IMG/VR virus record: IMGVR_UViG_3300020395_000006
Location: 1 to 64,000 of that record
Length of the DNA: 64,000 nt
Source of the DNA: a virus
Direction: 5' to 3' (one strand)
Shown: positions 53,378 through 56,720 of the stretch, one piece after another
Position numbering within the stretch: position 1 is the stretch's first letter
Layout: every line of letters begins with the position of its first letter
Notes under the pieces: model-generated
Seen by the model: only the letters and a program-made list of their open reading frames with translations
Databases searched by the model: none
What the model was told of the DNA's origin: nothing
Program-made: the position numbers and the translations under genes

Positions 53378-53887
53378 TTATTTAGAAGTAAGTTTATATG
53401 CAAGAGTAATCCTAATAGGACAAGTTTGCCTAGAAAAAGCAAAAGCTTTATGTTTAACCATACCATCAAAAGAAATCATTCTTTTACTGATAGGTGCAAC
53501 AATGTCATCTCCCACTTGAGTAAACCCACCCCATTCGGGATGGTAATCACTGACATATATTAGCACTGTCCTATCACAGTTGTCAACATGAAAACATCCA
53601 TCCATACCATAATATTGTCCATTTAGATAGACATCATCAATAGTATATTCACCTATTAATTTTTTTATCCTACTAAAAAGTTTAGTATGAAAAAAGAATC
53701 TAGCATCAACGTTTGGAAAACTAGAAATAAATTGTTTCTTACCTTCCTTTGGTGTGAAACACTTCAAAAATGGTAATCTATATGGATTAGTTGGACTACT
53801 ATATTGAGGTCTCCAAGACTTTTCTTGAACATATTCTTTTAGATAACTTATCTCGTCATCATGTAAAAAATCATCAAAGATTTCCAT
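53378..53887 (-). CDS. 2-oxoglutarate/Fe(II)-dependent oxygenase
   Basis: 169 residues. H-x-D in GCFHVDNC (about 100) and a distal H with basic R (KHKAFAFSRQTCPIRITLAY) form the facial triad and 2OG site of the jelly-roll oxygenases. Such enzymes hydroxylate proteins, nucleic acids or sugars. It overlaps the carbamoyltransferase N-half gene by one base, so both may act on the same polymer or peptide. Confidence 0.8.
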   Translation of the reverse strand: MEIFDDFLHDDEISYLKEYVQEKSWRPQYSSPTNPYRLPFLKCFTPKEGKKQFISSFPNVDARFFFHTKLFSRIKKLIGEYTIDDVYLNGQYYGMDGCFHVDNCDRTVLIYVSDYHPEWGGFTQVGDDIVAPISKRMISFDGMVKHKAFAFSRQTCPIRITLAYKLTSK

Positions 53888-54732
53888 CAGTAACTCTTTA
53901 TCTTTGGATTATTATACACTAAGTATGCTGCTCCAATAGATGTACCACCATCATATGCAATAGGATCAACATAAAAATTCAAGTCAGGAAACTCCTTCAG
54001 TAATTTATAATTTACAACACAATTCAAAAAACATCCACCAGTCAATACTATATTATTACATTTAGTTTTTGATACTGCAATCTTTACTAACTCAACAGAT
54101 CTATCTTCCCAGTTCTTTTGAACTGTTGCACATGCATTTTCTTCTGATGAATGTAGATAACCATCACCTTCAATATAATATCCAAAGGGTGCTAATCCCA
54201 TAACCTTACCTGCCTCATTCCTTCCCCACCCACATCTCTCAGAAACATTATCAAATGCAAATCCAATACCAAAAGTCTTATCAAAATTAAAAGTTTTATG
54301 AACACACTTCCAATAAAATCTTCTACCAGTTTTTACATGCATTATAGTTTCCGACTCATCTCCTTCAGGAAACTGAGATCCACTTGAGTCCACAACAATT
54401 ACTGCTGCTTCATCAAATTCAGAATTATAAAAACCACATGAAGTATGAGTTAGATGGTGTCGGTCTCTGAAATCATGTACTTCTGCATTACTAAACTTAT
54501 TTTTTATCTTAGCAACATCTCTGCTACTCTCAAGACATTTCTTCTTACCACTATAATAAGCATCAGAGAATGCAATATGATCTACATCATCAACAAAAGA
54601 TAATAGATCCTTTACAATATGATCCCTTTTCTTTCTTGTAATTCTTTCAGACTCTAAGTATAATTCTACCTTACCATTATCTAGTACACAGATAGAACCA
54701 TTATTAGATAAATTGACACCCAAAATTTTCAT
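53887..54732 (-). CDS. carbamoyltransferase, N-terminal (ASKHA-type) half
   Basis: About 281 residues from MKILGVNLSNNGSICVLDNG. HHLTHTSCGFYNSEF and VIVVDSSGSQFPEGDES are the histidine and ATP-binding motifs of the NodU/CmcH family, and GGCFLNCVVNYKLL with YDGGTSIGAAYL close the domain. Normal family members (about 570-610 residues) have this domain first, followed by the C-terminal domain in one chain. Here the C-terminal half is a separate gene located upstream, two bases ahead. Start 54732 chosen since it lies just after the stop of that gene. Confidence 0.8.
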   Translation of the reverse strand: MKILGVNLSNNGSICVLDNGKVELYLESERITRKKRDHIVKDLLSFVDDVDHIAFSDAYYSGKKKCLESSRDVAKIKNKFSNAEVHDFRDRHHLTHTSCGFYNSEFDEAAVIVVDSSGSQFPEGDESETIMHVKTGRRFYWKCVHKTFNFDKTFGIGFAFDNVSERCGWGRNEAGKVMGLAPFGYYIEGDGYLHSSEENACATVQKNWEDRSVELVKIAVSKTKCNNIVLTGGCFLNCVVNYKLLKEFPDLNFYVDPIAYDGGTSIGAAYLVYNNPKIKSY

Positions 54733-54733
54733 A

Positions 54734-55354
54734 CTAATAACCAAGAGAAGATTTTTTAATCATTCGTTTGACTTCAGGGAACCACAAGACATGTATATCA
54801 GATTGCTCAAAGGTATCTATGGCATCCTGTGGAGTTTCTACCAATGGTTGACCTGCAAGGTTGAATGATGTATTCAGAACCATCGGTATCTTAGTATACT
54901 TATAAAACTCTTCAATGACCTCATAAAAATGTGGTTGTTGAGCAGTAACTGTTTGTATCCTGCAGGTATTATCTATGTGTAGAACACCTGGTATCTTATC
55001 ATAAACATCTTCCTTTGCAGGAACAGCATAAGACATAGTAGGACAATGATTTAGTCTATCCATTTCAAACCAGTCACCAGCATGTTCTTTCATAACACTG
55101 GCAGCAAAAGGTCTAAATTTTTCTCTCCTCTTTACTTTATTGACAATATCTTTAGCATCAGGATCTCTGGGATCATATAATATACTTCTATTACCCAGTG
55201 CTCTTGGTCCTGCCTCAGATCTACCATTATATACTGCTACTATTTCATCTTGCATGATGAATGTAGCAATCTCTTGTGGTGTTACTCTTTGTGCTTCAGA
55301 ATGAGACCTAATAAATTCAACATCATGTTTTGGTCCCAAAAATAAATCTACCAT
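54734..55354 (-). CDS. carbamoyltransferase, C-terminal half
   Basis: 206 residues. LFLGPKHDVEFIRSHSEAQ is the family's hinge motif (YLGP), GRSEAGPRALGNRSILYDPR and KRREKFRPFAASV are the carbamoyl-phosphate binding motifs, and LNTSFNLAGQPLVETPQDA ends it. Its partner N-terminal half is encoded just downstream, so the order of the two halves is the reverse of the normal fused protein. Together about 487 residues, so the enzyme could be reconstituted from two chains, carbamoylating a sugar hydroxyl. Overlaps thyX by seven bases. Confidence 0.8.
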   Translation of the reverse strand: MVDLFLGPKHDVEFIRSHSEAQRVTPQEIATFIMQDEIVAVYNGRSEAGPRALGNRSILYDPRDPDAKDIVNKVKRREKFRPFAASVMKEHAGDWFEMDRLNHCPTMSYAVPAKEDVYDKIPGVLHIDNTCRIQTVTAQQPHFYEVIEEFYKYTKIPMVLNTSFNLAGQPLVETPQDAIDTFEQSDIHVLWFPEVKRMIKKSSLGY

Positions 55355-56129: not shown

Positions 56130-56157
56130 ATTATAGAGGATAAAAAAGGGGTGTCAA
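56130..56157 (-). promoter_or_regulatory. consensus sigma-70 promoter ahead of thyX
   Basis: On the minus strand TTGACA (56157-56152), 16 bases, TATAAT (56135-56130). Identical in hexamers and spacing to the promoter of the large noncoding RNA at 7344-7371. The transcript would begin near 56123 within the small basic gene and read into thyX. Confidence 0.65.
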
Positions 56158-56189
56158 GCACCCCTTTGATTTGTATTGTGTTTTGAGTC

Positions 56190-56270
56190 CTATGCGTATG
56201 CAAATCTAGGAAGATATGCCACGGATAAAAATATGATTGCTAGAAACATTGTTTGATAGAAAATTCTCAT
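56190..56270 (-). CDS. possible small hydrophobic peptide (26 aa)
   Basis: ATG at 56270, TAG at 56190-56192. MRIFYQTMFLAIIFLSVAYL with a terminal APRFAYA-like end resembles a single membrane span or a signal-like peptide. Preceded by a hairpin AATACCTA..TAGGTATT at 56277-56305. Very short, weak support. Confidence 0.35.
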   Translation of the reverse strand: MRIFYQTMFLAIIFLSVAYLPRFAYA

Positions 56271-56308: not shown

Positions 56309-56398
56309 CTACTTCCTAAGTTTGAATAGTTTTACCTCAACATAGATGAGACCTAAAACTACTACACTACCTACAATAATTGCTAGTGTACCAATCAT
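56309..56398 (-). CDS. small single-span membrane protein (29 aa)
   Basis: ATG at 56398 overlaps the TAA of the DUF4278-like gene. MIGTLAIIVGSVVVLGLIYV is hydrophobic, ending in a basic tail (KLFKLRK), a positive-inside single helix. Coupled to the gene upstream and behind the same riboswitch. Confidence 0.5.
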   Translation of the reverse strand: MIGTLAIIVGSVVVLGLIYVEVKLFKLRK

Positions 56399-56538
56399 TA
56401 GCTCTTAGAAGCAAACTTACGTTCTACTTTTATACCACGATACATTAGATCGTGATTTCTCTGTTGAGCTTCTGCTTGTACCATTTCACGGTACGCTTCA
56501 GAGTCGTACTTGACTCCACGATAAGTGACTTGTGCCAT
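56398..56538 (-). CDS. DUF4278-like small protein under a glutamine-riboswitch-like leader
   Basis: 46 residues from MAQVTYRGVKYDSEAYREM. The duplicated YRG motif (TYRGVKYD at the start, LMYRGIKVERKF near the end) is the mark of DUF4278, a small family frequent in cyanobacteria and their phages, with no known activity. ATG at 56538 has a GGAG site nine bases upstream that is itself in the loop of a TTGG/CCAA hairpin. It continues into a 29-residue membrane peptide. The upstream tandem RNA element makes it the likely regulated gene. Confidence 0.7.
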   Translation of the reverse strand: MAQVTYRGVKYDSEAYREMVQAEAQQRNHDLMYRGIKVERKFASKS

Positions 56539-56569
56539 TGGTTTCTCCAAAGGTAGGGTTTTTAGTCCC

Positions 56570-56658
56570 CGTTCCTTCAGTCGGCTTTTGCGTCCCATTT
56601 GGGATGAACGATTCCGTTCCGAGTCGGCTTACTTGCGACCTCTTCTGAGGTTGAACGT
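56570..56658 (-). promoter_or_regulatory. tandem glutamine-riboswitch-like RNA element (glnA / Downstream-peptide type)
   Basis: Two related units lie on the minus strand. Unit 1 (56658-56615): CGTTCAACC, AGAA, GGTCGCAAGTAAGCCGACT, GGAACG. Unit 2 (56610-56570): CGTTCATCC, CAAAT, GGGACGCAAAAGCCGACTG, AAGGAACG. Each has a CGTTC/GAACG closing stem, a short CC..GG hairpin and the GACGCAAGTA-like core typical of the glutamine-binding glnA and Downstream-peptide RNAs. A 6-bp hairpin GGTATG-CTAA-CATACC precedes them (56677-56662). Downstream, the ribosome site is in a TTGG-AGAAA-CCAA hairpin. Ligand not tested here. Confidence 0.8.
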
Positions 56659-56720
56659 AAAGGTATGTTAGCATACCCATATTATTTAGTCAAGTAAGTT
56701 TACAAAAAACCTATACAGAA

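Follow-up and report, generated by a model that had tools for sequence, protein, structure and literature searches.

Two glutamine-type aptamers in tandem ahead of a DUF4278 gene

The DNA stretch analyzed here (the window) comprises 64,000 nucleotides (nt) of IMG/VR record IMGVR_UViG_3300020395_000006, which has 68,264 bases in full; all positions given refer to the window. It is part of a cyanophage-like virus whose hosts are marine cyanobacteria, and its minus strand carries a tandem of glutamine-type riboswitch aptamers (56570-56657), ahead of a gene of the DUF4278 family (56398-56538). Measured between the outer P1 bases, the distal aptamer spans 56657-56615 and the proximal aptamer 56610-56570, separated by the 4-nt linker GAAU (56614-56611), and both contain AGCCGACT. 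The original prediction had claimed two units sharing this sequence at 56570-56658, and they are indeed there, to within one base, on the minus strand. When a 301-base query around the element was compared with 50,697 phage records, 148 matched, of which 110 were by name Synechococcus, 20 Prochlorococcus, 11 cyanophage and 7 marine virus records.

The units were searched with both Rfam covariance models of glutamine RNAs, RF01739 (type I, glnA; gathering score 35 bits) and RF01704 (type II, Downstream-peptide; 33 bits). The proximal unit (56566-56612; P1 56610-56606/56574-56570, P2 56604-56601/56596-56593) matched RF01739 with 37.0 bits, above the gathering score (E 2.2e-4 in the 64-kb window). 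The distal unit (56613-56659; P1 56657-56653/56619-56615, P2 56651-56647/56642-56638) reached 25.2 bits, below it (E 1.1e-4 in the 68,264-base record, 0.002 in the 301-base search); this unit would count as glutamine-like by homology to its proximal neighbor, not as a full Rfam member. Against RF01704 the proximal unit scored 25.2 bits, and its second helix contained mismatched pairs in the alignment; the score rules out the type II class for this unit. Thus, of the "glnA/Downstream-peptide type" originally proposed, the glnA half is the better fit and the Downstream-peptide half falls away. As in a tandem riboswitch, the window has a pair of same-class aptamers one after the other in front of a single gene, with the distal one under the Rfam cut-off.

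The gene that follows encodes 46 amino acids (aa) with two YRG motifs. It scored 27.5 bits against PF14105, whose cut-off is 25.3, and matched PHROG 5049 (E 2.5e-21), which bears out its earlier description as DUF4278-like and places it in the family. The glutamine synthetase inactivating factor IF17 has an inhibitory part in addition to its DUF4278 part; the 46-aa protein matches DUF4278 at positions 27-55 only. An in-frame extension that would begin at an ATG within the proximal aptamer (a 66-aa open reading frame (ORF), 56398-56598) was rejected, as a near-identical relative (L106) has a stop in frame. No PDB sequence matched the DUF4278 profile at E <= 0.1, and no paper treating DUF4278 together with phage was found in the literature searched.

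Two unit types among relatives and the question of the ligand

Relatives were surveyed in 145 sources: 120 loci picked by a DNA pattern with the exact aptamer core from among the matches listed, which numbered at least 120 (L001-L120), loci L124-L131 and L281-L296, and the window. The survey yielded 281 units, 142 of distal and 139 of proximal type. Among the loci picked by pattern, YRG was present in 104 of the 106 downstream proteins that could be read.

For comparison with hosts, matches were found in 72 of 386 cyanobacterial genomes, and 30 loci were examined, one unit each. By eye, all 30 host units contained both junction motifs, AAGUA and GAA before GGAACG. The phage cores differ: each phage unit type is without one of the two motifs, the distal type having AAGUA without GAA before GGAACG and the proximal type RAA without GUA. 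These two core types accounted for all 30 clusters of phage units, also with a looser pattern, although the junction counts are partly circular, since distal and proximal units were split by regular expressions that included the differing junctions. Relative to host aptamers, each phage unit in the surveyed loci looks half-complete.

Because the phage cores differ from those of the 30 host aptamers, the identity of the ligand is uncertain. The aptamers could have retained their fold and drifted to another ligand, such as another nitrogen metabolite; the divided junction motifs and a P3 reduced in phage units to about two pairs would fit such a drift. We nevertheless think it improbable, given that the proximal unit scores above the Rfam cut-off and that the downstream family is the one found in hosts (PMC6316151).

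Selection on the RNA structure

Covariation was assessed in 31 distinct units, namely the two of the window and 29 from related viral contigs. Pairing was intact in 98.6% of the P1, P2 and P3 cells, compared with 84.0% in shuffled sets, and double-sided changes numbered 48, compared with 9.6 +/- 3.0 in shuffles, a signal that collapsed once the partner strand was slid; the shuffles, here and below, ignore the relatedness of the sequences. The covariation was confined to P2, with P1 and P3 invariant in this set. The units thus show the three-helix fold (P1, P2, P3), conserved P1 and conserved core of RF01739, with covariation in one helix, and the pattern shows structural selection on the aptamer RNA.

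An invariant P1 and P3, with covariation coming from P2 only, would also be expected of a conserved DNA or protein-binding element that is no aptamer at all. Against this stand the match to a characterized aptamer and the strength of the P2 covariation, which extends to P2 strands more than 100 nt apart (see below), and we consider such an element very improbable. The original prediction of tandem glutamine-type aptamers in a phage is supported: the tandem units are real, and within a known class they stand out by a variant core and a variant geometry.

A short linker and a possible shared hairpin

In 135 of the 139 proximal units, a distal unit lay 3 (67 units), 4 (64) or 5 (4) nt upstream; for the other four, the flanks suggested an upstream neighbor that was either cut off or had a variant core missed by the pattern. 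Because GAACG, the 3' strand of the distal P1, and CGUUC, the 5' strand of the proximal P1, are complementary, a linker of 3-5 nt has the size of a hairpin loop. The window could accordingly form a shared hairpin, GAACG-GAAU-CGUUC (56606-56619, minus strand), which is mutually exclusive with both P1 stems.

The 135 joined pairs fell into four architectures, distinguished by whether a unit is short or contains a nested ORF (described below): both units short (38, including the window), distal short with proximal nested (82), distal nested with proximal short (9), and both nested (6). We folded 36, 77, 9 and 6 distinct leaders of these architectures, respectively. In the free ensemble, the shared hairpin had a pair probability of 0.99 in the window and mean probabilities of 0.83, 0.78, 0.82 and 0.68 over the four architectures; the P1 stems averaged at most 0.17 in the four architectures and were almost absent in the window. 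Together, the short linker and the modeled hairpin suggest that the two aptamers are coupled.

Alternatively, the two could be independent glutamine aptamers, with no coupling through a hairpin and a linker kept short only for end-to-end stacking of the P1 stems. Coaxial stacking would account for the linker constraint equally well, and a review classes glutamine doublets as pseudo-cooperative tandem systems (PMC9481103). Opposed to this are the prevalence of the shared hairpin and the near absence of P1 stems in the folded window, in a calculation that leaves ligand and tertiary energies outside. We regard independence as unlikely, if less so than a change of ligand.

Promoter, ribosome site and a proposed mechanism

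A sigma-70-like promoter precedes the element at 56665-56693 on the minus strand, with TTGACT (56693-56688), a 17-nt spacer, TAACAT (56670-56665) and an extended TG (9 of 12 matches); 7 nt separate its end from the distal aptamer. Among distal units with enough upstream sequence, a promoter-like hexamer pair was present within 60 nt upstream in 120 of 140, compared with 11 of 140 when shuffled, and in relatives the -10 end was mostly 7-11 nt ahead of CGUUC. Judging from the position of the promoter, the transcript probably starts at the distal aptamer.

Downstream, CUGAAGG (56580-56574), which belongs to P3, J3/1 and P1 of the proximal aptamer, can pair with CCUUUGG (56553-56547) in a 7-bp helix (56547-56580, minus strand) that covers the first bases of the Shine-Dalgarno sequence GGAG (56548-56545). 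The equivalent pairing, of CURAAGG (P3 3' strand, J3/1 and the start of the P1 3' strand) with CUUYRG at the Shine-Dalgarno site, formed 6-7 contiguous bp in 81 of 108 distinct leaders, compared with 6% of shuffles. The variable pair of this helix was A:U in 31 leaders, G:U in 39, G:C in 11 and A:C in none (Fisher p 0.005, not corrected for relatedness). These sequence comparisons suggest a role for the helix in control. Since the helix excludes a closed P3 and P1, the ribosome site should become accessible once ligand is bound.

No terminator-like site was found between the aptamers and the DUF4278 gene on the minus strand, which speaks against termination of transcription as the mechanism and makes translational control, as originally proposed, the most likely mode. 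The small hairpin that had been predicted to hold the ribosome site (UUGG..CCAAUG) does exist in the window; only 27 of the 108 distinct leaders have one, so it is not a general platform.

We consider it likely that the element is a cyanophage tandem glutamine riboswitch which switches on DUF4278 translation at high glutamine, its aptamers acting as a coupled pair and not as separate sensors. Transcripts from the promoter would begin with the distal aptamer. Without ligand, the 3' strand of the distal P1 would pair across the 4-nt linker with the 5' strand of the proximal P1, such that both aptamers stay open, and the proximal aptamer's CUGAAGG would pair with CCUUUGG at the Shine-Dalgarno sequence; both pairings are proposed on the grounds of folding and sequence comparison. 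If the distal aptamer bound glutamine while the RNA was being transcribed, the distal P1 would stay closed and the 5' strand of the proximal P1 would be freed, whereupon the proximal aptamer would close and remove the anti-Shine-Dalgarno strand.

Several results weigh against this mechanism, beginning with the distal score below the gathering score and the departure of the phage cores from the host junctions. Imposing both aptamer folds on the window takes 10.7 kcal/mol, ligand and tertiary contacts not counted. A contiguous anti-Shine-Dalgarno helix of 6 bp is missing in 27 of the 108 distinct leaders (26 score 0 and one scores 4). Furthermore, forcing both aptamers changed the mean unpaired probability of the window's ribosome site from 0.47 to 0.50, leaving its release unsupported by nearest-neighbor folding, and exposure rose by more than 0.05 in 13 of 36 and 21 of 77 leaders of the first two architectures (9 of 9 and 3 of 6 in the others). 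As folding fails to confirm the release, the ON direction is drawn mainly from the published host riboswitches (PMC6316151).

Protein genes nested inside the aptamers of relatives

The window has the short form of both aptamers, without a nested ORF, and in many proximal units of relatives the two strands of P2 are far apart. The distance from the P1 5' strand to the core was at most 45 nt in 178 of the 281 units and more than 100 nt in 103, with none between. In all 103 long units, an ATG 3-7 nt after CGTTCA opens an ORF of 49-69 codons. The stop codon of proximal nested ORFs falls in the core, at +16 (66 of 88) or +13 (16 of 88), with the remaining six ending earlier or running on; among the 15 distal ones, six reach their stop at +9, in CGCAAGUAA (or CGGAAGUAA), and nine terminate ahead of the core.

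Despite their separation, the P2 strands of nested units retained at least four consecutive pairs in 46 of 53 unique pairs (7-base ends), compared with a mean of 27.7 and a maximum of 34 in 2,000 shuffles, and P2 covariation was strong here as well. Among 79 unique pairs (9-base ends), the A of the nested start codon lay within the P2 helix in 68, and all three of its bases in 24.

We also searched with protein only; so that the RNA itself would not drive the selection, the query was the ORF body with the tail removed. The body matched 312 phage records, and the distal-type nested ORF matched 53. Sixteen loci were fetched, 15 chosen by hand for diversity among 60 listed matches to the ORF body and one from the 10 of another listing. 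In all 16 the ORF lay between P2 strands, and five also had a nested distal unit. Rfam reported none of the nested units in these 16 loci at E <= 1, and units of this form may be overlooked for that reason. Both tandem aptamers contain a nested ORF in L124 (P-HM2), L281 (Syn9), L286, L287, L294 and L295. The arrangement of an ORF within an aptamer sequence is well established by these data.

In 65 pairs of similar proximal-type ORFs, differences at the three codon positions were 0.176, 0.084 and 0.247, and shuffled ORF bodies stayed open in 97 of 5,150 trials. Of six nested ORFs tested, five belonged to PHROG 504 and one, the distal-type ORF of P-HM2, to PHROG 6471, both families of unknown function; in P-HM2, P-SSM7 and S-SSM7 the nested ORFs carry the annotation "hypothetical protein". 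Two cysteines are conserved in the proteins of the proximal type, and the structure predicted for them is a helical hairpin (mean predicted local distance difference test score (pLDDT) 76), for which a structure search returned no match at E <= 0.001. As to a host origin of the nested ORF, PHROG 504 was found in none of the 386 cyanobacterial genomes, which is not proof of absence since no control matched. One loose-pattern scan of genome contigs gave mostly chance matches in unrelated bacteria, its only yield being one cyanobacterial genome.

The ORF tails used a restricted set of codons: among 81 unique ORFs, tail aspartate was GAC in 165 of 165 cases (44 of 206 in bodies) and tail lysine AAA in 52 of 52 (93 of 202 in bodies), a bias that shows synonymous constraint. 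In S-CAM3 the ORF ends ahead of the P2 3' strand, and both this strand and the core are nonetheless intact; the commonest proximal core occurred 33 times in short units and 31 times in nested ones. From the codon bias, the S-CAM3 core and the core common to both forms, it follows that the core is held by its RNA function.

Since translation of the nested ORF needs the very bases from which the aptamer folds, the two processes should be mutually exclusive, which suggests a toggle, with either the nested protein or the DUF4278 protein being made. As a tentative proposal, somewhat short of an even chance in our estimate, the window would be a stripped form of a cyanophage module that nests protein genes in aptamers: glutamine would close the aptamer, cover the nested start and open DUF4278, and low glutamine would yield the nested protein. 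Having the short form, the window itself would be governed by the ordinary tandem switch only.

Folding did not show such a toggle. With aptamers forced, the mean unpaired probability of the nested start codon went from 0.29 to 0.27, with a drop greater than 0.05 in 20 of 77 leaders, and from 0.44 to 0.36 (3 of 6), so that its exposure was almost unchanged.

Neighboring genes

Two tiny hydrophobic-rich ORFs follow the DUF4278 gene on the minus strand, at 56309-56398 (29 aa) and 56190-56270 (26 aa), the first overlapping the DUF4278 stop codon as TAATG; the operon may thus encode small membrane proteins besides DUF4278. An intrinsic-terminator-like hairpin at 56145-56167 (minus strand) is a possible transcript end, and it overlaps a perfect promoter-like site for the next gene (TTGACA/TATAAT, 12 of 12; 56130-56167, minus strand). 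Further along the same strand, at 53887-55354, an ORF for a carbamoyltransferase C-terminal domain (206 aa) lies upstream of a 285-aa ORF and overlaps it, and this gene may be split. In marine virus AG-345-O18 (L295), a manA RNA match (184.7 bits, 1070-1267) sits close downstream of the riboswitch operon.

Significance and comparison with known systems

If the proposed mechanism is true, a common family of ocean viruses gains a direct read-out of host nitrogen status, and the linker-sized gap suggests a simple way of coupling two identical aptamers. A coding gene inside an aptamer would be an unusual overlap of coding and ligand sensing; it is present in well-known isolates such as Syn9, S-RIM2 and P-HM2, making the nested form testable with existing laboratory phages, and this family-level context raises the interest of the window's element. 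The fixed 3-5 nt linker and the nested-ORF form of relatives are new here: neither the linker rule nor the shared hairpin nor an ORF within a riboswitch aptamer came up in the literature searched, which missed some key glutamine-riboswitch papers.

What has been published before is the glutamine riboswitch as such, its occurrence as doublets, its association with DUF4278 and its presence in phages. Weinberg et al. described glnA RNAs in tandem, as well as small ORFs that follow Downstream-peptide RNAs (PMC2864571), and glutamine RNAs have been reported in phages (PMC9964418, PMC9602691, PMC9004378). In hosts, both type 1 and type 2 glutamine riboswitches act as activators of expression, their main targets being DUF4278 genes such as gifB, with a link to IF17 (PMC6316151).

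The closest known system is the type-1 riboswitch (glnA motif, RF01739; gifB in Synechocystis), with which the phage element shares the aptamer consensus, the P1/P2/P3 layout, a DUF4278-type target and probably translational ON control. In contrast to it, the phage has two units with a 3-5 nt linker, a reduced P3 and different junction bases, and is without the CGCCUC/GAGGCG-like platform seen by eye in most of the 30 host loci; among the listed host matches, no two were adjacent, again by eye. The type-2 riboswitch (Downstream-peptide, RF01704) of marine picocyanobacteria shares the small DUF4278 targets and the marine cyanobacterial setting (PMC6316151) and differs by the score and second-helix mismatches given above. 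Published tandem glutamine riboswitches (157 doublets and 4 triplets; PMC9481103) likewise place two glutamine aptamers in series, and the excerpted passages do not describe a linker, a shared hairpin or ORFs inside aptamers. Finally, cyanophage S-CREM1 (PMC9964418) and methylophage Melnitz (PMC9004378) are marine phages that also carry a glutamine-type RNA; the excerpts on them leave DUF4278 and nested ORFs unmentioned, and in Melnitz the RNA sits at a tmRNA gene.
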